A DNA stretch of 64,000 bases from Streptomyces dengpaensis. GTDB lineage: Bacteria > Actinomycetota > Actinomycetes > Streptomycetales > Streptomycetaceae. Shown piece by piece: positions 40,626-51,174 of the stretch; within the stretch, counting starts at the first letter, position 1, and each line of letters starts with the position of its first letter. The notes under the pieces are model-generated. The model did no database searches. It was not told the origin of the DNA and worked only from the letters and a program-made list of their open reading frames with translations. Location of the stretch: assembly GCF_002946835.1 (NCBI RefSeq), contig NZ_CP026652.1:3162001-3226000 (forward strand). The letters run 5' to 3'. The translations under genes were made by a program, and so were the position numbers.

Positions 40626-41201
40626 GTGAAACGTAGGCAATTGTTGGTGGGGCTCTTCGGTGTGGCTGTGGTTGCCACCGGAGTCACGTCGTGGGCGATT
40701 CATTCCTACTCGGCAGTGCCCCCGGATTCCAAGGCCCCGTCACCAGCGAAACAGAACCTGCAGGATGCCAATACGCTTTTGCAGGCCGGCATTCTGCAGC
40801 AGGAGCACCACGACTTCGAAGGGGCCGACCGTACCTACCGGCGAGTCCTGGAGCTGGACCCGCAGAACAAGTTCGCCTGGTACAACCTGGGAGTCATCGC
40901 GCATGAGGATGACAGGGTGGCCGATGCCCGTGCGGCCTACGACAAGGCCCTGAAGATCGATCCGGCGTTCCCGTCGGCTCTCTTCAACGAGGCGCTTCTG
41001 CTGGAGTCGAGCGATCCCGACCGGGCCGGCGGGCTCCTGAAGCGTGTCATTGCCGGCAATCCCAAGGCGGCCACGGCGCATCTGCGCCTCGGACGGATCT
41101 GGGCGCAGAAGAACCGTGACGACAAAGCCGCGGACGAGTTCCGTCGTGCGGTCGCGGCCGATCCCTCACTGCGTTCCCAAGTGCCGGAGGAATTCCGGTG
41201 A
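40626..41201 (+). CDS. Membrane-anchored TPR protein A
   Basis: 191 residues. An N-terminal hydrophobic helix (LLVGLFGVAVVATGVTSWAI) could be an uncleaved anchor or signal. At least three TPR units follow (YRRVLELDPQNKFAWYNLGV, ARAAYDKALKIDPAFPSALF, HLRLGRIWAQKNRDDKAADE). TPRs scaffold protein contacts, and no enzyme activity is expected. It is a paralogue of the protein at 42721-43308, and both end in QVPEEFR. GTG start at 40626. It lies 52 bp upstream of a glycosyltransferase fusion gene, probably in the same transcript. Confidence 0.85.
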   Translation: MKRRQLLVGLFGVAVVATGVTSWAIHSYSAVPPDSKAPSPAKQNLQDANTLLQAGILQQEHHDFEGADRTYRRVLELDPQNKFAWYNLGVIAHEDDRVADARAAYDKALKIDPAFPSALFNEALLLESSDPDRAGGLLKRVIAGNPKAATAHLRLGRIWAQKNRDDKAADEFRRAVAADPSLRSQVPEEFR

Positions 41202-41253
41202 TTCCTGACTCCTCAGTACCCTCACCGACATCGAGCCAAGCAGGGAGCAACAG

Positions 41254-42528
41254 ATGACGTCGACGGCGACACCGAAGTTCTCCGTCTTCACCCCCAGCCA
41301 CCGGCCCCGTTTCCTCGATGAGTGCCTGGCGACTCTGCAGGCGCAGACCTGTTCCGACTGGGAGTGGATCGTCCTGCTCAACAACGGCGCCCGGTGGCGG
41401 CCGGAGCGGCACGACGACAGGGTCCGCGTGGAGATCGCGGACGACGTCAAGGGCGTCGGAGCGGCGAAGCGCAGGGCCTGTGAACTGGCCCGCGGCGAGA
41501 TCCTCGTGGAACTCGACCACGACGACCTGCTGGCGAAGGCGTGCCTGGCGGAGCTTAGCAAGGCGTTCGACGCGCATCCCGAGGCCGTCTTCGTCTACAG
41601 CAACACCGCGCAGATCACCGAGGACGGAAAGCGGGACGACAACCGTTTCGACGAGACGTTCGGCTGGCAGTACGAGGAGGTGAAGGTCGACGGCCGCAAG
41701 CTGCTGCAGGTCGTCTCCCTGGCGCCGACGCCGCACAACGTCGCCTACATCTGGTACGCGCCCAACCATGTGCGGGCGTTCCGCAAGGAGAGCTACGAGA
41801 AGGCCGGCGGGTACGACGCAGAGCTCACGGTCCTGGACGACCAGGACCTGATGTGCCGCCTCTTCCACGTCGGCGACTTCCACCACATCAACCGCTGCCT
41901 GTACCTCCAGCGGGTTCACTCCGGGAACACCCAGAGCGACCCGGAGATCAACGCGCACATCCAGCGCCGGACGGTCGCCCTGTACGACAAGTACATCGAG
42001 GCCAACGCCCTCGCCTGGACCTACCGGCGCGGACTGCTCGCGCTGGACCTCGGCGCGGCCCACCGGAAGCCGCCGGGCTACGTCGGCGTGGACCAGCGGC
42101 CGGGAGAGGGTGTCGACATCGTCGCGACCCTGCCGGGGAAGCTGGACCTGCCCGACGGCTCCGTCGGCCTGATGCGGGCGAGGGACTTCCTCGAGTACGT
42201 GCCCGCGAAGGTGCCGCTGATCAACGAGCTGTACCGGCTGCTGGCGCCCGGTGGCATGCTCCTCACCATGACGCCCAGCTCCGACGGCCGCGGCGCGTAC
42301 CAGGACCCCACGCACGTCGCCTACTACAACGAGAACTCGTTCTGGTACTACACGGACGACCAGTACCGCACCTTCGTGCCGGACCTCGAGGCCCGGTTCC
42401 AGTCGTCGCGACTGGTCACCTACTTCCCGAGTGAGTTCCACTCCCAGAACGACATCTCGTACGTGGTCGCCAACCTCATCGCGATGAAGGACGGCACCGC
42501 GCGGTGCGGCGGAAAGCTCCTGGTCTAG
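41254..42528 (+). CDS. Family 2 glycosyltransferase fused to methyltransferase-like domain
   Basis: 424 residues. Residues 1-235 are a GT-A glycosyltransferase (FSVFTPSHRPRFLDECLATL, GAAKRRACELARGEILVELD, then DHDD as the metal motif, and VLDDQDLMCRL). Residues from about 245 resemble a class I SAM-dependent methyltransferase: LLALDLGAAHRKPPGYVGVD, a degenerate motif IV, and LYRLLAPGGMLLTMTPSSDG. It has no membrane segment. It may transfer and modify a sugar on a glycan or glycoprotein; donor and acceptor are unknown. It lies between two TPR genes. Confidence 0.85.
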   Translation: MTSTATPKFSVFTPSHRPRFLDECLATLQAQTCSDWEWIVLLNNGARWRPERHDDRVRVEIADDVKGVGAAKRRACELARGEILVELDHDDLLAKACLAELSKAFDAHPEAVFVYSNTAQITEDGKRDDNRFDETFGWQYEEVKVDGRKLLQVVSLAPTPHNVAYIWYAPNHVRAFRKESYEKAGGYDAELTVLDDQDLMCRLFHVGDFHHINRCLYLQRVHSGNTQSDPEINAHIQRRTVALYDKYIEANALAWTYRRGLLALDLGAAHRKPPGYVGVDQRPGEGVDIVATLPGKLDLPDGSVGLMRARDFLEYVPAKVPLINELYRLLAPGGMLLTMTPSSDGRGAYQDPTHVAYYNENSFWYYTDDQYRTFVPDLEARFQSSRLVTYFPSEFHSQNDISYVVANLIAMKDGTARCGGKLLV

Positions 42529-42540
42529 ACCCCGCGGAAC

Positions 42541-42583
42541 AGCAGGCGCCCGGTGGACCGTGAGGTTCCGCCGGGCACCTGCT
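42541..42583 (+). terminator. Hairpin after the glycosyltransferase fusion gene
   Basis: AGCAGG-C-GCCCGG pairs with CCGGGC-A-CCTGCT around a 17-base loop, giving a 13-position stem with one mismatch. It starts 13 bases after the stop codon. Confidence 0.6.
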
Positions 42584-42609
42584 CTGTCATTCGGGTGGTT
42601 TGCACGCCC

Positions 42610-42720
42610 CAAGCGCCTGCCGAACGGCGGCGCCATCGGGGCGGCCTCGTAACGTCGGTGTCGGCCACCTGAGGTAAGACGTATCCATCCATCCTCTGCT
42701 ATTCCATGAGATGTGACAAA
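42610..42720 (+). promoter_or_regulatory. Duplicated promoter module of the TPR genes
   Basis: GAACGGCGGC (42622) and CCTCGTAACGTCGGTG (42645-42660) repeat the arrangement at 40523 and 40546-40561 with identical 24-bp spacing, while the bases between differ. Conserved blocks at fixed spacing suggest a promoter or activator site rather than simple recent duplication. Confidence 0.5.
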
Positions 42721-43308
42721 ATGACACGTAGGAGATTGTGGGCAGGGCTCGTAGCGACGGCGACGGTCGCCACCGGGGTGACCGTCTGGGCGCTTCAATC
42801 CCCGTCGTCCGTGCTGTCGGAATCCAAGTCCGCGTCCGTGACCCGGAACAGCAAGCCGGCAGAGGCACTCTTGCAGTCCGCACTTCAGCGCCAGACGCAC
42901 CAGGATTCCCTTGGGGCTGCCCGGGACTACCGGCGTGTGCTGGAACTGGACCCCGAGAACAAGCTCGCCTGGTACGGCCTCGGCGCCATCGAGCAGCAGA
43001 ACGGCAGGACGGCGGATGCCCGTGCAGCGTACGAGAAGGCTCTCGAGACCGATCCGAAATTCATGTCCGCGCTTTACAGCGAGGCGTTGCTGCTGAGGTC
43101 GAGCGATCCCGACCGGGCCATTGAGCTCTTGAAGCGTGCCGTTGCCGCCGATCCGAAGGCCACCGCGATCCAGGTGGAACTGGGTAACCTCCTGGCCGAG
43201 CAGCACCGCAAGGGCGAGGCCGAGGATGTGTTCCGTCATGCGGTCGCGGTCGACCACCAGATCCTTTCCCAAGTGCCGGAAGAGTTCCGGAGTTCCGTGA
43301 GCCGCTGA
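42721..43308 (+). CDS. Membrane-anchored TPR protein B
   Basis: 195 residues, a paralogue of the protein at 40626. The N-terminal hydrophobic helix is LVATATVATGVTVWAL. TPR units are DYRRVLELDPENKLAWYGLG, ARAAYEKALETDPKFMSALY and AIELLKRAVAADPKATAIQV. SSDPDRA and SQVPEEFR are shared with copy A. It probably scaffolds an envelope or glycan complex. ATG 42721 (MTRRRLWAG) matches the start of copy A; an in-frame ATG five codons earlier is less likely. It is convergent with rmlD. Confidence 0.85.
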   Translation: MTRRRLWAGLVATATVATGVTVWALQSPSSVLSESKSASVTRNSKPAEALLQSALQRQTHQDSLGAARDYRRVLELDPENKLAWYGLGAIEQQNGRTADARAAYEKALETDPKFMSALYSEALLLRSSDPDRAIELLKRAVAADPKATAIQVELGNLLAEQHRKGEAEDVFRHAVAVDHQILSQVPEEFRSSVSR

Positions 43309-43335: not shown

Positions 43336-43377
43336 GAAGGCGCCCTGCGGACCCATCTGGTTCCGCAGGGCGCCTTC
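43336..43377. terminator. 16-bp perfect-stem terminator between TPR gene and rmlD
   Basis: GAAGGCGCCCTGCGGA / TCCGCAGGGCGCCTTC has a 10-base loop and touches the rmlD stop codon. It probably terminates both convergent units. Confidence 0.85.
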
Positions 43378-44288
43378 TACCTGTGGCGGGCGCTCGCGCG
43401 CGCCGCGGCGGCCGACCCGGCGAACGCGGGTTCCTTGAGGGCGGCCACCAGCTGGTCGTCCCACGGGGGGAGGGGGGCGAGACCGGCCCGCAGCCAGTTG
43501 CCGTGGCCGAGGACACCGAAGGCCGGGCGGGCGGCCGGACGCGGGAACTTGTCCGAGCCGACCGGGCGGATCCGCTCGGGATCGAGGCCGCTGAGCCGGA
43601 AGGTCTCACGCGCCAGACCGCACCATGTGGTGCGGCCGGCCGCCGTGCCGTGGTAGATGCCGGCCGGTGCCTGTCCGGTCAGCGCGGCACTGCCGAGGGC
43701 GGCCAGCTGCCGGGCGAGCGCCCGGGACCATGTCGGCTGGCCGTGCTGGTCGGCCACCACGTCCAAGGTCTCGTGCCGGGACGCGAGTTCGAGCATGGTG
43801 GCCGCGAAGTTCGGGCCGTGCGCGCCGTAGAGCCAGGCGGTGCGCACGACGTAGCCGGTGCGCGGCAGCAGTTCGAGGACTGCCCGCTCCCCCGCCAGTT
43901 TGCTCCGCCCGTACGCGTTGACGGGCCCCGTCGGCGCGTCTTCGGGGTACGGCCGACGGCCGTCGCCCGGGAACACGTAGTCGGTGGAGATGTGGAGCAG
44001 GAGCGCGCCGCTGTCCGCGCAGGCGCGTGCGAGGTGGCGGACGCCCGTGCCGTTCACGGCTGTGGCCGCCGCCTCGGACCGCTCGGCGCCGTCGACGTCC
44101 GTCCAGGCGGCACAGTTGACGACCACTCGGTGGCCGGTGACGGCGGCGCGGACGGCTGTCGGGTCGGTGATGTCGAGCCTGTCTCGGCTCAGTCCCGTGA
44201 CCTCGGCGTCCGGATCGCCGGCGAGCTCGGCCAGCACGTCCTGGCCGAGGAGCCCGCGTGCGCCGGTCACCAGCCAGCTGGTTGTCAT
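43377..44288 (-). CDS. rmlD: dTDP-4-dehydrorhamnose reductase
   Basis: 303-residue SDR enzyme. The N-terminal Rossmann motif is WLVTGARGLLGQDVLAELAG, followed by LDITDPTAV, VVNCAAWTDVDGAE, LLHISTDYVFPGDG and YGRSKLAGE with the Tyr-x-x-x-Lys pair. It catalyses the last step to dTDP-L-rhamnose using NADPH. ATG 44288 overlaps the rmlB stop (ATGA); upstream in-frame codons belong to rmlB in another frame. It is the last gene of the rml operon. Confidence 0.95.
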   Translation of the reverse strand: MTTSWLVTGARGLLGQDVLAELAGDPDAEVTGLSRDRLDITDPTAVRAAVTGHRVVVNCAAWTDVDGAERSEAAATAVNGTGVRHLARACADSGALLLHISTDYVFPGDGRRPYPEDAPTGPVNAYGRSKLAGERAVLELLPRTGYVVRTAWLYGAHGPNFAATMLELASRHETLDVVADQHGQPTWSRALARQLAALGSAALTGQAPAGIYHGTAAGRTTWCGLARETFRLSGLDPERIRPVGSDKFPRPAARPAFGVLGHGNWLRAGLAPLPPWDDQLVAALKEPAFAGSAAAARASARHR

Positions 44289-45259
44289 CGCAGCTCGGCC
44301 CTCTCCTTGAGCGGCTCCCACCAGGAGCGGTGTGCGCGGTACCAGGCGACCGTGGCGGCCAGGCCCTCCGTGAAGGACACCTGCGGGGCGTAGCCGAGCT
44401 GCTCACGGATCTTGCTGTCGTCCAGCGAGTAGCGCAGGTCGTGGCCTTTGCGGTCGGCCACGTACTCGACCCGGTCCCAGCCGGCGCCGACCGCGTCCAG
44501 CAGCAGGCCGGTGAGCTTGTGGTTGCTCAGCTCGGTCCCGCCGCCGATGTGGTAAACCTCTCCGGCCCTTCCGCCCTTCAGGACCAGTTCGATGCCCTGG
44601 CAGTGGTCGGAGACGTGCAGCCAGTCGCGGATGTTGCGGCCGTCTCCGTACAGGGGGACCGTGTTCCCGTCGATCAGGTTGGTGATGAAGAGCGGGATGG
44701 CCTTCTCGGGGAACTGGTACGGCCCGTAGTTGTTGGTGCACCGGGTGACCACCACGTCGAGGCCGTGGGTGCGGTGGTAGGCGAGCGCCAGCAGGTCGGA
44801 GCCGGCTTTCGACGCGGAGTACGGGGAGTTCGGCGCCAAAGGCCACCCTTCGGTCCATGAGCCTTCGCTGATCGAGCCGTAGACCTCGTCGGTGGAGACG
44901 TGCACGAATCGGCCGACACCGTGCCGGCGGGCCGCGTCCAAAAGCACCTGCGTGCCCATCACATTGCTGCGAACGAACGGACCGGCCCCGTAGATCGACC
45001 GGTCCACGTGCGACTCGGCGGCGAAATGGACCACCGCGTCCTGGCCCGTCATCACCTGGTCGACCACGTCCGGCTCGCAGATGTCGCCCCGGACAAGGGT
45101 GTAGCCCGAATGTTCCGACACCGGTGCCAGATTGGCCTCGACCCCCGAGTAGGTGAGTTTGTCGAGGACGGTGATCCGCGCTGTCGGATCCGATTCCAGC
45201 CGTCGGCGGACGTATTCCGAACCGATGAATCCGGCGCCGCCGGTCACAAGGATGCGCAT
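44285..45259 (-). CDS. rmlB: dTDP-glucose 4,6-dehydratase
   Basis: 324-residue extended SDR. MRILVTGGAGFIGSEYVRR binds NAD, VVHFAAESHVDRSI and VHVSTDEVYGSI are diagnostic, and PYSASKAGSDLLALAYHRTH gives Tyr-x-x-x-Lys. YGDGRNIRDWLHVSDHC is also typical. It makes dTDP-4-keto-6-deoxyglucose, the second step to dTDP-L-rhamnose. GGAG precedes ATG 45259. It is separated from the upstream rml genes by the collagen-like gene and a 276-bp gap. Confidence 0.96.
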   Translation of the reverse strand: MRILVTGGAGFIGSEYVRRRLESDPTARITVLDKLTYSGVEANLAPVSEHSGYTLVRGDICEPDVVDQVMTGQDAVVHFAAESHVDRSIYGAGPFVRSNVMGTQVLLDAARRHGVGRFVHVSTDEVYGSISEGSWTEGWPLAPNSPYSASKAGSDLLALAYHRTHGLDVVVTRCTNNYGPYQFPEKAIPLFITNLIDGNTVPLYGDGRNIRDWLHVSDHCQGIELVLKGGRAGEVYHIGGGTELSNHKLTGLLLDAVGAGWDRVEYVADRKGHDLRYSLDDSKIREQLGYAPQVSFTEGLAATVAWYRAHRSWWEPLKERAELR

Positions 45260-45535
45260 AGTTCTCCGAGTTTTCTTGCTGCCCGGCGTTCAGCACCGGG
45301 GGTGTGACTGGTCACCCAAGTATCTGCGCCACTTACGCTACTCAGGGCTGCAGCATCTCCCAGGCAGGCAGGACCGATTCACGCTGGTGTTGTCGATTAC
45401 GAGCCGGCGCATTCCTCGATTCCGCGGGCGCGGGCAGAATGCGGACGGTGCCCGCCAGGCCGAAGCCTCGCGGGCACCGTCGTTCATTCCCAGGTAAAGC
45501 GGGCGGCCGGTACGGCACCGCCGCTCACATGGGAG
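45260..45535. other. Gap between collagen-like gene and rmlB
   Basis: 276 bp with no gene. It contains an 11-bp-stem terminator (45445-45480) downstream of the collagen-like gene and presumably a separate promoter for rmlB-rmlD. Confidence 0.5.
45445..45480 (-). terminator. Terminator after the collagen-like gene
   Basis: ACGGTGCCCGC / GCGGGCACCGT, a perfect 11-bp stem with a 14-base loop, lies 56 bases beyond the collagen-like stop on the minus strand. Confidence 0.75.
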
Positions 45536-46285
45536 TCACGGGCCAGGAACCGGGCTGCAGACCGCGAAGGCCTGGATGGTGCCAGTGCTCGGGAATTGGC
45601 CGGCGGCCTGCCATCCGTCGGTCGGGGAGCTCTTGAACGGGGTACTCCTAAGCGTCATGGAGACGACGTTGGGAGGGCCCTCGATGTATCCGCCGCCGGT
45701 GACGACATCGTTGCCGATGCAGAAGGCTTCCGACGAGACAGTGGTCCCGCCCAACCCGGAAACCACCTCGCCGGGCACGACGTAGGTGGAAATCGAGCCC
45801 ACGCCCGACGCACCCTGGCTACCCTGCGCGCCCTGCGCGCCCTGGGCACCCTGCGCGCCCTGAGCACCCTGCGCGCCCTGAGCACCCTGCACGCCTGCGC
45901 CCGTTGCGCCCTGGGCACCCTGCGCGCCCTGAGCACCCTGGACACCCACACCGTTGGCGCCCTGCGCGCCCTGAGCGCCCTGAGCGCCCTGCGGACCCTG
46001 CGGACCCCGCGGACCCTGCGCGCCCTGCGGACCCCGCGCGCCCTGCGGACCCCGCTTGCCTTCCTTGCCCGGCTTGCCCTGGGCCCCCTGGGGGCCCCGG
46101 TCGCCCCGGTCGCCGCTCTTTTCTTTTTCACCGTACGAGCTGACAGTGGTGTCGACGCCCGACCTGTCGATCGCGTCGGCGATGGCCACCGAGCTCGGCG
46201 CAGCGTTGAGCACCACCGCGAGAGCGCCCGCCGACACCAGCGTGGCGGACCTCAGGCGTGAACTTCGAATCGTTCTACGGTTCAA
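45536..46285 (-). CDS. Secreted collagen-like (Gly-X-Y) repeat protein
   Basis: 249 residues. A signal peptide ([20 protein letters not shown]...VAIADA) precedes about 60 residues of linker. Then come more than 35 Gly-X-Y triplets, first mixed ([20 protein letters not shown]), then mostly GAQ, with two short breaks at GANGVGVQG and GATGAGVQG. The last 85 residues form a globular domain with Cys in AFCIGND and FAVCSPVPG. There is no LPxTG or membrane anchor. Bacterial collagen-like proteins trimerise and are often surface glycoproteins. The start is TTG 46285 after GAGGAAGG. It lies between rmlC and rmlB. Confidence 0.88.
45810..46095. repeat. 9-bp coding repeat array of the collagen-like gene
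   Basis: On the plus strand the array appears as runs of CTGCGCGCC and CTGAGCGCC-like nonamers encoding Gly-Ala-Gln and Gly-Pro-Gln. It is likely to vary in copy number between strains. Confidence 0.8.
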
Positions 46286-46446
46286 GAGAACCTTCCTCAG
46301 GAACTGGGAGGGAATCAGGCCGCAAGCGCGCGCACCCGGTGCGCTTTATTCGCATGCGCGTCACGTCGCCTTTGGCTACGGACAAAGCCATTCTTAATCT
46401 CTCGGCAATCGAATGGTCACGGATCACGCCACGACTTGCGCGAGGA
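46286..46446. other. Leader of the collagen-like gene
   Basis: 161 bp between rmlC and the collagen-like gene, less GC-rich than average (for example ATTAAGAATGG on the minus strand). This gap, together with the terminator downstream, suggests the collagen-like gene has its own promoter. Confidence 0.4.
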
Positions 46447-47091
46447 TCACCCGTGCGGCCTCAGTGGACCTACATTCTCCGTGTCTTCCTCGCAGATTCC
46501 TTTGGCGAGCCCTCTGCGATACGCGGTGCAGCCCTCGAAGGAAGGCAGCAGACCTTGTCGCCCGGCTTCCTCCAGCGTGGGCGCAGTGGCGTCCTTGTCG
46601 GAAAGGTGCGGGGCGAGTTCCTCGGGCCAGGCGATGGCCAACTCGGGGTCGAGCGGGTTGATCCCGTGTTCGCGCTGCGGCGCGTATCCCTGTGAACAGA
46701 GGTATACGACGGTGGAATTGTCCTCCAGCGCCATGAAGGCGTGGCCCAGCCCTTCCGAGATGTACACGCAGCGGTGCGTCGTGTCGTCGAGTCTGACCGC
46801 CTCCCACCTCCCGAAGCTCGGAGAACCGGTGCGGATGTCGACCACCACGTCGAGGACGGCGCCGCTGACGCAAGTGACGTACTTGGCCTGGCCCGGTGGG
46901 ACCGATGCGTAGTGGATGCCGCGGAGGGTGCCGATAACGGAGCGGGAGCAGTTGGCCTGCTCGAGTCGGAGCCCCTGGCCGATGGAATCACGAAACCCTT
47001 CACTCTTGAACCACTCGTGGAATCTGCCCCTGCCGTCCGCGAACACCTTGGGCGTGTCTACCCAGGCCCCTTCGATACCCAGTGGCTCCAT
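46447..47091 (-). CDS. rmlC: dTDP-4-dehydrorhamnose 3,5-epimerase
   Basis: 214-residue cupin epimerase. Signs are DGRGRFHEWFKSEGF, LRLEQANCSRSVIGTLRGIH with the catalytic His region, KYVTCVSGAVLDVVVDIRTG, VYISEGLGHAFMALEDNSTV and YAPQREHGINPLDPELAIAW. It epimerises C3 and C5 of dTDP-4-keto-6-deoxyglucose. ATG 47091 follows AAGGAG. It lies 30 bp after rmlA. The C-terminal 20 or so residues extend beyond the usual family end. Confidence 0.95.
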   Translation of the reverse strand: MEPLGIEGAWVDTPKVFADGRGRFHEWFKSEGFRDSIGQGLRLEQANCSRSVIGTLRGIHYASVPPGQAKYVTCVSGAVLDVVVDIRTGSPSFGRWEAVRLDDTTHRCVYISEGLGHAFMALEDNSTVVYLCSQGYAPQREHGINPLDPELAIAWPEELAPHLSDKDATAPTLEEAGRQGLLPSFEGCTAYRRGLAKGICEEDTENVGPLRPHG

Positions 47092-47121
47092 GTGAATGCT
47101 CCTTTTCGCCGCACAGTCGGT

Positions 47122-48054
47122 TCAGGGCCGGCCCAGGGGTTCTTCGTGGCGCGATCCCCCGCCTCTCTGGGGCACGACGACATATCGGTAGTCCTCCAGC
47201 AGTCCCAGCAGATAGTGGCCGTACCCGCTCTTCAGCAGGGGCTGGGCCAGTTCCCGGAGCCGGTCGTCATCGATCAGGCCGGCACGCCACACCGCTTCCT
47301 CCACGCATCCGACCTTGAAGCCCTGGCGCTCCTCGATCACCCGGACGAACTCCGAAGCCTGCATCATGGAGGTGAAGGTCCCGGTGTCCAGCCAGGCGGT
47401 GCCGCGGTCCAGTCGCGTGACGTGCAGCGTCCCGGCCTCCAGATAGACCCGGTTGAGGTCGGAGATCTCCAACTCGCCCCGGGCGCTGGGCCGCAGACCG
47501 CGGGCGATGTCCACGACGTGATGGTCGTAGAAGTAGAGGCCGGGCACGGCGTAGCGGGACTTCGGCCGGGCCGGTTTCTCCTCGATGGACAGCGCCATGC
47601 CCGACTCGTCGAATTCCACCACGCCGTAGGCCGAGGGGTTGACGACCTGGTAGGCGAACACCCTGCCGCCCTTGAGGTCGTCGTCGTGGCGGGCCAACCG
47701 GGTGCCGAGGCCGCTCCCGTGGAAGATGTTGTCGCCCAGGATCAGGGCCACCGACTCGCTGCCGATGAAGTCGGCCCCCAGGAGGAAGGCCTGGGCGATG
47801 CCCTCCGGACGCTCCTGCGCCATGTACTCGAGCCGCAGGCCCAGTTGACTGCCGTCGCCGAGCAAGCGGCGGAACTGGTACTGGTCTTGAGGGGTGGTGA
47901 TGATCAGGATCTCGTGGACACCGGCCATCACCAGCGTGGAAAGCGGGTAATAGATCATCGGTTTGTCGAAAACCGGCAGCAGTTGCTTCGACACAGAGTG
48001 GGTCAGTGGCCACAGTCGCGAGCCGGTGCCCCCGGCCAGGAGAATTCCTCGCAT
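47122..48054 (-). CDS. rmlA: Glucose-1-phosphate thymidylyltransferase
   Basis: 310-residue nucleotidyltransferase. [18 protein letters not shown] and [20 protein letters not shown] form the active site. [12 protein letters not shown] binds metal, [20 protein letters not shown] is sugar-binding, and [20 protein letters not shown] is also present. It starts the dTDP-L-rhamnose pathway. ATG 48054 is the first gene of the minus-strand rml cluster, divergent from a GT-C glycosyltransferase. Confidence 0.96.
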
Positions 48055-48191: not shown

Positions 48192-49472
48192 ATGCCCGAC
48201 ACAGCCGCCGAGGCCCCCCGCCGGCACACCGCCGATTCGACCGTGCTGGCGCTGGCCGCATACACCACGGTGACGGTAGCCCTCCTGGTCCGTGTGCTTC
48301 TGCTGCCCGGCGAGTCGGGCGACTATGTCACCTTTCTCGAGCCCTGGTACTGGCACATCGTGAGCCACGGCGGGTTCCACGCTCTCGCTGACCCCAGCTT
48401 CTCGGACTACAACGTCCCCTACCTCTATCTGATGGCCGCGCTGACCTACCTGCCGCTGTCGTCGCTGGTGGGCATCAAGTGTGTCTCGATGCTGTTCGAC
48501 CTGGCGCTGGCGTACTACGCCTTCCGCATGGTGTCCCTGTTGCGGCCCACGCACCGCTGGGCGGCCATCGGCGCGGCCGCGGTCGTACTCTTCCTGCCCA
48601 CTGTCGTCACCAACAGCGGTTGGTGGGGGCAGTGCGACGCCGTCTACACGGCCTTCCTGGTCGGTGGGGTCCACTACGTGCTGCGCCACCGGCCGTGGTG
48701 GGCGTGCACGTTCTTCGGGATCGCGCTGGCGTTCAAGTTCCAGGCCGTTTTCCTCTTCCCCTTCCTGCTCGTACTGGTGCTGGTGGGACGGGTGCCGTGG
48801 CGGTGCCTGCTCGCCGTTCCCGCGGCGTACCTCGCACTCGCTGTCCCGGCCCTCGTGATCGGCGCCGACCCGGGGCGGCTGCTGACGGTCTACGCCCGGC
48901 AGACGGACACGTACCACTTCCTCACCGTCAACGCGCCGTCCGTCTACCAGTTCGTGTCGGTGCCAGGTGACCCCAACCCCGTGCGCAGCGCGGGCGTTCT
49001 GGTCGCGGGGGTGCTGGTGTCGCTCCTGATGGGGCTGGCGGTCTGGTCCCTGCGGCGCGGCCGACGCGGCGTGCCGGACTCCGGCCTTCGCGTGCCGGCA
49101 CTCACGGACACCCGGATCGTGTTGCTGGCCACCTGCTCCGCGATCGTGGTGCCGTTCCTGCTGCCCTCGATGCACGAGCGGTACTTCTACGTCGCAGACG
49201 TGTTCACCGTGATGGCCGCGTTCCTGCGGCCCCGGCAGCTTTGGTACGTGCCGGTGCTGGTGCAGCTCGCCTCGTTCGGCAGTTACCTGGTGTGCGTTGC
49301 CCCGCGCGTGGCTCCGTATCTGTCGATGCCTGCGCACGGTGTGCTGATGCTGCTGGCGCTGATGGCCGTGCTCCGGACGACGGTCCACGAGTTCCGCCAC
49401 GGACCCGAAGCACCGAGCATGCCCGGCCAGCCGGTCGCCGGCAGGACCACGTCCGAGCCGGCCCGGACGTAG
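48192..49472 (+). CDS. GT-C type polyprenol-dependent glycosyltransferase
   Basis: 426 residues with ten or more membrane segments. The first external loop carries the acidic signature ESGDYVTFLEPWYWHIVSHG, as in mannosyltransferase/PMT-like GT-C enzymes. NSGWWGQCDAVYTAFLVGGV, IALAFKFQAVFLFPFLLVLV and LPSMHERYFYVADVFTVMAA resemble Alg6/8-like bacterial members. It should move a sugar from a polyprenyl-phosphate donor to an acceptor outside the membrane. It is divergent from rmlA and convergent with a dolichol-phosphate-type glycosyltransferase that could supply its donor. Confidence 0.87.
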   Translation: MPDTAAEAPRRHTADSTVLALAAYTTVTVALLVRVLLLPGESGDYVTFLEPWYWHIVSHGGFHALADPSFSDYNVPYLYLMAALTYLPLSSLVGIKCVSMLFDLALAYYAFRMVSLLRPTHRWAAIGAAAVVLFLPTVVTNSGWWGQCDAVYTAFLVGGVHYVLRHRPWWACTFFGIALAFKFQAVFLFPFLLVLVLVGRVPWRCLLAVPAAYLALAVPALVIGADPGRLLTVYARQTDTYHFLTVNAPSVYQFVSVPGDPNPVRSAGVLVAGVLVSLLMGLAVWSLRRGRRGVPDSGLRVPALTDTRIVLLATCSAIVVPFLLPSMHERYFYVADVFTVMAAFLRPRQLWYVPVLVQLASFGSYLVCVAPRVAPYLSMPAHGVLMLLALMAVLRTTVHEFRHGPEAPSMPGQPVAGRTTSEPART

Positions 49473-49567: not shown

Positions 49568-50614
49568 CTAGCCGCCGACGGAATCCTGTCGGCTTCCCTG
49601 GCCGCGTCGTGGGCCCGGCCAGGCGACGCCCATCGCGGGGGCGGTCGCCGTGCCGGTGTCTTCGGCGACGTAGTAGGTCGGGCGTTGCTGGACGACGGTG
49701 TAGATGCGGCCAATGTACTCGCCGAGCACGCCCAGGCAGATGAGCTGGACGGCGCCGATGAAGAGAACGGCGATGATCAGGGAAGCCCAGCCGGGGGTGG
49801 TGTCGCCCGCCGCGTACACGGCCAGCGTGTACACGAGCGTGCCGAGGCAGACGAAGAAGGCGAGGGTGCCGAGCCAGGTGGCCAGGCGCAGCGGGGCGAC
49901 GGAGAAGCTGATGATGCTGTCGACCGCCAGCAGGATCATCTTGCGCAGGGGGTACTTGGTCTGACCGGCGACGCGTTCGTCACGGTGGTAGGTGACCTCT
50001 CCGCTGGGGAAGCCGAACCAGGGCACCAGGAGCCGGTACACCTGCGGCTGGTCGGGCAGGGCCTTCAGGGCGTCGAGGGCGTTGCGCGACAGAAGGCGGA
50101 AGTCGCCGGCCTGGGCGGGGACGTGGTTGCCGACCAAGCGACGCATGAGCCAGTAGTAGGCCCCGGCGGTGCGGCGCTTGAAACCGGTGTCGGTGGATCG
50201 GTTGGCGCGTACTCCGTAGACGATGTCCAGGCGCCGGGAGCGGGCCAGGACGAGCATCTCAGGGATCTTCTCCGGGGGGTCCTGGAGATCGGCGTCGAGG
50301 CTCGCGGCGTAGCGACCGCGGGCGTGGTGCAGGCCGGCGGTCAGCGCTGCCTGGTGTCCACTGTTGCGGCGCAGTCGTACCATCCGCAGTTGGGGCCAGG
50401 TGGCCCGCAGCTCCAGCAGTAGCTCGGCCGTCCTGTCCGTGGAGCCGTCGTCCACCGCGACGACCTCGTACGGCTCGCCCGTGCCGTCCAGCACTGGCCG
50501 TAGCCGCCCCACCAGCGCCGGCAACGCCTCTTCCTCGTTGAACATCGGGATCACGACCGACAACTCAACCGCATACTCGATCCGGTCGGTCGGGTCGTGG
50601 AGCACATCAATCAT
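49568..50614 (-). CDS. Family 2 polyprenyl-phosphate glycosyltransferase (GtrB/DPM1-like)
   Basis: About 348 residues. The GT2 domain has LSVVIPMFNEEEALPALVGR, VVAVDDGSTDRTAELLLELR, SLDADLQDPPEKI and AGDFRLLSRNALDAL. Two C-terminal membrane helices (LATWLGTLAFFVCLGTLVYT, LIIAVLFIGAVQLICLGVLG) are typical of GtrB. It attaches a sugar to polyprenyl phosphate at the inner face. Starts at 50614 (MIDVLHD), 50632 and 50713 are possible; the first leaves room for divergent promoters. The divergent GtrA gene probably encodes its flippase partner. Confidence 0.9.
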   Translation of the reverse strand: MIDVLHDPTDRIEYAVELSVVIPMFNEEEALPALVGRLRPVLDGTGEPYEVVAVDDGSTDRTAELLLELRATWPQLRMVRLRRNSGHQAALTAGLHHARGRYAASLDADLQDPPEKIPEMLVLARSRRLDIVYGVRANRSTDTGFKRRTAGAYYWLMRRLVGNHVPAQAGDFRLLSRNALDALKALPDQPQVYRLLVPWFGFPSGEVTYHRDERVAGQTKYPLRKMILLAVDSIISFSVAPLRLATWLGTLAFFVCLGTLVYTLAVYAAGDTTPGWASLIIAVLFIGAVQLICLGVLGEYIGRIYTVVQQRPTYYVAEDTGTATAPAMGVAWPGPRRGQGSRQDSVGG

Positions 50615-50742
50615 TCGGAGATGCCAGCCCATTCTCGAGCGGGTCGGCGCAACAAAGCGCACGATTTGCTCGCATACGGTACTGTCTGGGGCTGTTTCAG
50701 TGTGTACAGACACACGCTCTCGAACCTCGGGTGCCGTAATCG

Positions 50743-51174
50743 ATGCCGAACTTCACCGAGCCCGCCCCCGCCGCCGTGACCGAGGCCGGGGTCGCCCGGC
50801 AGCTGCCGGTGTTCGCGATCATCGGTGTGCTGTCCACCGCCGCCTATCTGGGCCTGTACACGGCGCTCCGGCCGGCGCTCGACGCCCAGCCCGCCAACCT
50901 GGTCTCGCTGTTGGCCACCGCTGTGGCGAACACCGCCGCCAACCGCCGATTCACCTTCCGGGTGCACGGCGTGGACGGAGCTGCCCGGCATCAACTCCAG
51001 GGGCTGGTGGCCTTCTTCGCCGGGCTCGCGCTCAGCAGCGGCGCCCTCGCCGTGGTGCACCGGGCCCTGCCGGACGCGCCGCACGTGGAGGTCGGCGCAC
51101 TGATCGTGGCCAATGTCGCCGCGACCGCACTTCGCTTCCTGTTGCTGCGGCTTTGGGTGTTCAGAGGGCCGTAG
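50743..51174 (+). CDS. GtrA-family membrane protein
   Basis: 143 residues, four membrane segments. GVARQLPVFAIIGVLSTAAY and ATAVANTAANRRFTF are the GtrA signature. It ends ATALRFLLLRLWVFRG. GtrA proteins are thought to flip polyprenyl-phosphate sugars made by GtrB. It is divergent from the GtrB-like gene by about 130 bp. Confidence 0.9.
   Translation: MPNFTEPAPAAVTEAGVARQLPVFAIIGVLSTAAYLGLYTALRPALDAQPANLVSLLATAVANTAANRRFTFRVHGVDGAARHQLQGLVAFFAGLALSSGALAVVHRALPDAPHVEVGALIVANVAATALRFLLLRLWVFRGP

Follow-up and report, generated by a model that had tools for sequence, protein, structure and literature searches.

Glycosylated collagens have been described in endospore-forming bacteria and in giant viruses. 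In Clostridioides difficile the glycosyltransferase SgtA, whose gene adjoins bclA3, glycosylates the collagen-like protein BclA3 and places N-acetylglucosamine on threonine (Thr) or serine (Ser) of collagen-repeat peptides (PMC7157674). The BclA protein of the exosporium nap of Bacillus anthracis spores bears glycans in its collagen region, including a tetrasaccharide that contains three rhamnose residues (PMC6947953). Mimivirus has a dedicated enzyme, L230, which hydroxylates lysine (Lys) of collagen-like proteins and adds glucose to it (PMC9614988). The titles and abstracts of the open-access literature that we consulted describe no collagen-glycosyltransferase system of Streptomyces. Here we present a locus of Streptomyces dengpaensis, contained in a stretch of 64,000 nucleotides (contig NZ_CP026652.1, positions 3,162,001 to 3,226,000; hereafter the window), in which a gene for a secreted collagen-like protein lies among rml genes, close to a gene encoding a GT2 glycosyltransferase fused to a methyltransferase-like domain (41254-42528; hereafter GTmt). 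With a probability of roughly 0.55, these genes constitute a dedicated glycosylation system, probably based on rhamnose, that serves one secreted collagen-like protein (a putative trimer).

The GTmt gene was found in 17 of 199 Streptomyces genomes and is accompanied in all 17 by a collagen-like open reading frame (ORF), located 72-4188 bp away in the 16 other loci (examined with about 9 kb on each side) and 3007 bp away in the window; in one locus (L124) the ORF as called is without the usual signal. The same caller detected no collagen-like ORF in 20 regions of 20 kb placed arbitrarily in seven GTmt genomes, nor in 20 regions (13-20 kb) around other rmlC genes, taken from about 90 other rmlC matches, and a raw scan of all 40 control regions for glycine (Gly)-X-Y repeats found none. 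The contrast of 17/17 with 0/20 gives a Fisher p of 6e-11, with kinship ignored. The Pfam model PF01391 is noisy in the genus, matching 191 of 199 genomes, many of them on both strands of one stretch. Counts of its matches were rejected as a measure of collagen genes; identification therefore relies on the ORF with its signal sequence and homologues, and the ORF-level caller was used for all counts.

The association extends beyond the genus. GTmt was present in 13 of 246 genomes in a sample of the class (11 outside the genus) and in 4 of 296 in a sample of the phylum (2 outside the genus), and a collagen-like stretch adjoins it in 11 of these 13 non-Streptomyces genomes, nine being detected by the ORF caller and two (L222, L223) by the raw scan alone. 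At L225 (genome G708) the collagen consists of a 15-triplet fragment alone, at a contig end. At L229 GTmt itself is truncated by the end of the contig, and the remaining side, seen over 5.5 kb, is without collagen; at L131 the contig ends 436 bp past GTmt, with 9 kb on the other side without collagen. The pair was thus seen in 28 of 30 GTmt genomes overall, and in 28 of 28 in which both sides are visible or the gene was found. In addition, a planctomycete contig, found through its collagen (L062, positions 7-2093), carries a collagen-like ORF that overlaps a gene resembling GTmt (40% identity), which suggests that the pair reaches beyond Actinomycetota.

The converse association is looser. Among the best 80 of 142 confirmed loci in a scan of named genomes, nine belong to named Streptomyces, seven with GTmt within about 6 kb (L004, L005, L011, L022, L041, L061, L077) and two (L006, L040) without it. 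The C-terminal head domain of the collagen-like protein occurs in 12 of 392 Streptomyces genomes and lies beside GTmt in nine, the window included. The hits away from GTmt are in G230, G034 and G275; elsewhere in G034 there is a GTmt locus too, whose collagen is more diverged. Short collagen-like proteins with the same signal type, and with no GTmt within about 10 kb, are encoded at L133 (G230) and L137 (G034), while at L134 (G275) the caller finds no collagen ORF and GTmt was also not found. GTmt goes with the collagen gene, yet some of these collagen genes stand apart from GTmt.

A preliminary description of the window, made from its sequence, had proposed an extracellular rhamnosylated collagen-like fibre or coat, and had named beforehand, as a test, the location of the collagen gene in relatives. 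In most of them this gene is not at unrelated loci; it accompanies GTmt, mostly with a dedicated clade of rml genes. Eleven of the 17 Streptomyces loci have an aminotransferase gene as a neighbour, so that many of them occupy one chromosomal site, and the genes might be adjacent through shared ancestry and hitch-hiking at this site, with no common function. We consider this very unlikely: the pair holds in loci without the aminotransferase, in other families and in the 40%-identical planctomycete copy; it is retained while gene order and orientation vary between loci; and second sets of rml genes (described below) are present in precisely those genomes whose linked set is broken or incomplete.

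The main genes and signals of the locus in the window are as follows:

47122-48054, minus strand: rmlA, glucose-1-phosphate thymidylyltransferase; passes the NCBIfam equivalog cut-off
46447-47091, minus strand: rmlC; Pfam E 6.6e-58; member of a clade restricted to the GTmt neighbourhood in 199 genomes
45536-46285, minus strand: collagen-like protein of 249 aa; PF01391, 56.4 bits (cut-off 27.2)
about 45444-45481, minus strand: hairpin 3' of the collagen gene; 12-bp stem, without a U-run
44285-45259, minus strand: rmlB, dTDP-glucose 4,6-dehydratase; passes the NCBIfam equivalog cut-off
43377-44321, minus strand: rmlD, dTDP-4-dehydrorhamnose reductase; TIGR01214, 272 bits; passes the NCBIfam equivalog cut-off
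42706-43308, plus strand: tetratricopeptide repeat (TPR) protein 2, a paralogue of TPR protein 1
41254-42528, plus strand: GTmt; profile match; constant neighbour of the collagen gene
40626-41201, plus strand: TPR protein 1, adjoining GTmt; N-terminal membrane anchor (read by eye)

All four enzymes of the dTDP-L-rhamnose pathway (dTDP, deoxythymidine diphosphate) are encoded in the window, RmlC scoring slightly short of its NCBIfam cut-off (153.3 against 155.75 bits). ORFs and profile matches agree with the preliminary description in the order rmlA, rmlC, secreted Gly-X-Y protein, rmlB and rmlD on one strand. The collagen ORF starts at a TTG codon (46285) preceded by a Shine-Dalgarno sequence (AGGAAGG); its leader is 161 bp long, as had been described, and the gap to rmlB is 276 bp. 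A terminator had been placed at 45445-45480: the hairpin is real (stability z -5.4), but it has no U-run and was not scored as a terminator in a pattern scan. A scan of 45200-46500 for sigma-70-type promoters found none, which says little, since Streptomyces promoters often differ.

An RmlC of at least 74% identity is encoded in 11 of 199 genomes, in every case beside GTmt, whereas the best match elsewhere reaches 70%. In a tree of 38 RmlC proteins, 16 locus-linked sequences constitute one clade (support 100/99). The linked rmlC genes of G362 and of G723 (another family) fall outside it; two long branches (L136, L231) group together in the tree, so that their exact places are unsure, but both lie outside the clade. 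In G723 TPR, GTmt, four rml genes and the collagen gene lie within about 6.5 kb, and in G362 all four rml genes were matched within 3.6 kb of the collagen gene. Since these linked rmlC genes lie outside the clade, rml genes appear, from the tree, to have joined GTmt and the collagen gene more than once.

All four rml genes were matched by tblastn at 10 of the 17 Streptomyces loci, while the linked set is incomplete at seven (L117, L118, L120, L121, L122, L123, L127); L121 retains rmlD, with only short matches to rmlA (50 residues) and rmlB (34 residues). In a first count, a second rmlC was found elsewhere in all seven genomes with an incomplete linked set versus two of ten others (G101, G117; Fisher p 0.002). 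It usually lies among other rml-like genes and, in G182, about 12 kb from GTmt. Frame changes, due to decay or assembly error, are present in the linked rmlD of G101 (L115) and the linked rmlB of G117 (L116), and the rmlD-like match at the latter locus is only 49% identical. When loci are split by intactness, a refinement made after the data were seen, a second rmlC occurs in 9/9 genomes with an incomplete or frame-broken set and in 0/8 with an intact one (by simple counting, a chance of 1 in 24310); among GTmt-negative Streptomyces genomes, rmlC at the same cut-off occurs in 75 of 182. No other result indicates so strongly that GTmt genomes need rhamnose, a need that may extend beyond this locus. 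Similarly, rmlD is present in 17/17 GTmt genomes of the genus versus 78/182 others and, at the curated cut-off, in 13/13 of the class versus 126/233 (p 0.0005), the two samples sharing Streptomyces genomes, including that of the window and G013. With G405, G553, G293 and G362, which also carry rmlD, the total is 32 of 32 GTmt genomes checked. The core of the system is GTmt with the collagen gene; the rml genes accompany it, and their linkage is not required.

The GTmt protein is 92% identical in S. musisoli (L022) and 87% identical in S. aurantiogriseus (L041). The aligned members match a GT2 model in 20 of 20 cases and a methyltransferase model in 19 of 20. Their invariant residues include D88, D90, D91, D195, D196 and D198, which presumably resemble the metal-binding and catalytic stretches of GT2 enzymes. 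An LDLGAA-like stretch, expected to bind S-adenosylmethionine (SAM), is present in the genus, in Micromonospora (L015) and in G553 (L131); it is degenerate in L062 and absent from L227, L230, L231, L232 and L132. Inspection by eye revealed no membrane segment; a reaction in the cytoplasm is therefore probable. Two diverged GTmt copies lie a few kb apart at G820:C171 (L226), G759:C151 (L227) and G708:C35 (L225), with one collagen gene nearby at each of L226 and L227. A different GT2 enzyme adjoins GTmt at L077 (7037-8152) and L225 (7142-8269); that of L077 sits directly between the collagen gene and GTmt and carries TPR repeats.

The nearest structures to the predicted GTmt model (pLDDT, predicted local distance difference test, 82) are K4CP, a Leptospira glycosyltransferase, SpsA with dTDP, WrtF and RmlT; judged from the model, these neighbours fix neither the sugar donor nor the acceptor. 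They are also consistent with a role of GTmt and the rml genes in the assembly of a surface polymer or cell-wall glycan that contains rhamnose, the collagen-like protein binding to this polymer or being displayed on it instead of acting as acceptor. GTmt is structurally nearest to GT2 enzymes that synthesise polymers or decorate those of the cell wall (K4CP, WrtF, RmlT, TarS); the stalk of the collagen-like protein is without a conserved acceptor residue; and genes for a GT87 enzyme and GtrB stand at 3 of 17 loci. We regard such a role as possible but doubtful, since the collagen gene is beside GTmt wherever both sides are visible or the gene was found, and since nothing flippase- or polymerase-like is apparent among the seven shared neighbour groups scanned, smaller groups lying outside the scan. 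These seven groups comprise phosphoenolpyruvate carboxykinase, a trypsin-like protease, an amidohydrolase, a D-serine-dehydratase-like enzyme, a PfkB kinase, an HlyIII protein and one group without a Pfam match.

The TPR proteins offer another candidate substrate. A TPR gene accompanies GTmt at 11 of the 17 Streptomyces loci. Among 24 loci, 18 have a called TPR gene, and in nine of these, including those of Micromonospora and G850, its end, stop codon included, overlaps the start of GTmt by 4 bp; in the window 52 bp separate the two genes. Two paralogous TPR genes stand on either side of GTmt in the window (40626-43308). As read by eye, the TPR proteins begin with a membrane anchor, replaced outside the genus by a lipobox (L015, L228, L231, L232), so they probably act outside the membrane. 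Both the overlap and the lipoboxes would fit a system in which GTmt modifies the adjoining TPR protein and the collagen-like protein is its partner; we consider this unlikely, as the six loci without TPR keep GTmt and the collagen gene.

The collagen-like protein of the window consists of (i) a Sec-type signal, with cleavage expected near AIA-DAI (read by eye), (ii) a linker of about 19 residues, (iii) a Gly-X-Y stalk with 34 scored triplets and (iv) a C-terminal head of 87 aa with two cysteines. Export by the twin-arginine (Tat) route was rejected by eye, because not all members retain the arginine pair (it is RK in L004 and L130). Glutamine (Gln) occupies 62% of the Y positions of the window stalk and is the most frequent Y residue of every one of the 17 GTmt-linked stalks of the genus. 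The head is predicted to fold like the C-terminal modules of PCSK9 and like resistin, which ranked first with VIA-align; Foldseek alone gave no significant match, so this likeness rests on VIA-align, and a Pfam scan of 25 members returned just two matches, at chance level. An AIADAIRRAG-like motif occurs later in the sequence, with a longer linker, in six of six TPR-less loci (L117, L122, L123, L126, L127, L128) and in one of the 11 others (L119). It may reflect contact between TPR protein and linker or mark one clade, and because these loci are possibly one clade we left the pattern out of the evidence. A far longer collagen-like ORF in G362 (L136, 9825-18446) adjoins GTmt, TPR and rml genes. 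It encodes 2873 aa, with 1072 Gly, 634 Gln and an uninterrupted run of up to 225 triplets, and so exceeds the window protein in length more than tenfold.

In the glycosylation system that we favour, RmlA-D would supply dTDP-L-rhamnose and GTmt would transfer rhamnose, or a rhamnose-containing glycan that is perhaps O-methylated in Streptomyces forms of the enzyme, to the collagen-like protein; this step would probably take place in the cytoplasm and precede Sec export. Once outside the cell, the protein would trimerise through its resistin-like head and Gly-X-Y stalk, perhaps tethered or assembled there by the membrane-anchored TPR protein. We infer the collagen-like protein to be the acceptor and rhamnose the sugar.

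Several points weigh against this system. Its support is computational, and the association statistics all ignore shared ancestry. GTmt is missing from the neighbourhood of some related collagens (over 6 kb at L006 and over about 10 kb at L133 and L137), 9 of 17 loci have no intact linked rml set, and at a plain E cut-off the contrast for rmlD in the class is weaker (13/13 versus 151/233, p 0.004). Methylation is doubtful in the distant GTmt proteins that have lost the SAM-binding stretch. Gram-positive proteins glycosylated in the cytoplasm before Sec export usually need special handling, and none was seen at the locus. Finally, an acceptor site is not evident in the sequences of the collagen-like proteins: three of the 17 stalks (L118, L120, L121) contain no Ser, Thr, asparagine (Asn) or tyrosine, and an O-glycan there must therefore sit in the linker or head. 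Ser or Thr is present in linker and head of all 17 proteins, which makes these the likelier acceptor sites, as judged by composition; Gln of the stalk would be a bolder option. On the most far-reaching and highly improbable reading, GTmt represents a new class of collagen-modifying enzyme, placing (methyl)rhamnose on stalk residues other than Ser or Thr, e.g. Gln, of a trimer with a resistin-like head.

The glycan of Bacillus BclA is carried on Thr of the collagen repeats, and its head is a C1q/TNF-like trimerising domain. The present locus resembles BclA in linking a collagen-like surface protein to rhamnose, here through the genes, but its product has a Sec-type signal and a head predicted to be PCSK9/resistin-like. 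With site availability alone considered, the window stalk holds 1 Thr, 2 Ser, 1 Asn and 3 Lys, and two of 17 stalks (L129, L130) are Thr-rich. A Thr-glycosylated stalk was rejected as a general rule from the composition of the stalks, and the analogy with BclA drawn in the preliminary description fails in such details. In C. difficile a glycosyltransferase gene likewise adjoins the gene of the collagen-like protein that its product modifies; here a GT2-type enzyme is encoded beside the gene of its presumed substrate. In contrast to BclA3 and SgtA, the Streptomyces stalks are Gln-rich, some lacking Thr, the enzyme has a methyltransferase-like domain and rml genes are associated. A dedicated enzyme that glycosylates collagen-like proteins, putative here, is also known in Mimivirus L230, but the stalk of L121 has no Lys to hydroxylate.

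Besides the fusion, the preliminary description had counted a GT-C enzyme and a GtrB/GtrA pair in the same block, and profile matches confirm all of these in the window:

48192-49472, plus strand: GT87 GT-C enzyme; accessory, 3/17 loci
49568-50713, minus strand: GtrB-like GT2; accessory, 3/17 loci
50743-51174, plus strand: GtrA-like membrane protein; accessory, 2/17 loci (tblastn)

In regions reaching about 9 kb from GTmt these genes are local additions, and at such frequencies they were rejected as core parts. The idea of a linked collagen-sugar system is otherwise well supported in outline by the GTmt-collagen pair and the rml clade.

The GTmt-collagen locus is sparse, being present in a minority of Streptomyces and some relatives, yet it is spread over several families, and its pairing in rhamnose-capable genomes points to a sugar-coated bacterial collagen not yet described. 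If the proposed system is correct, it would provide a simple enzyme-substrate pair for decorated collagen-like fibres, and, as an actinobacterial system with its own sugar-nucleotide genes, would extend glycosylated collagens to filamentous soil bacteria.

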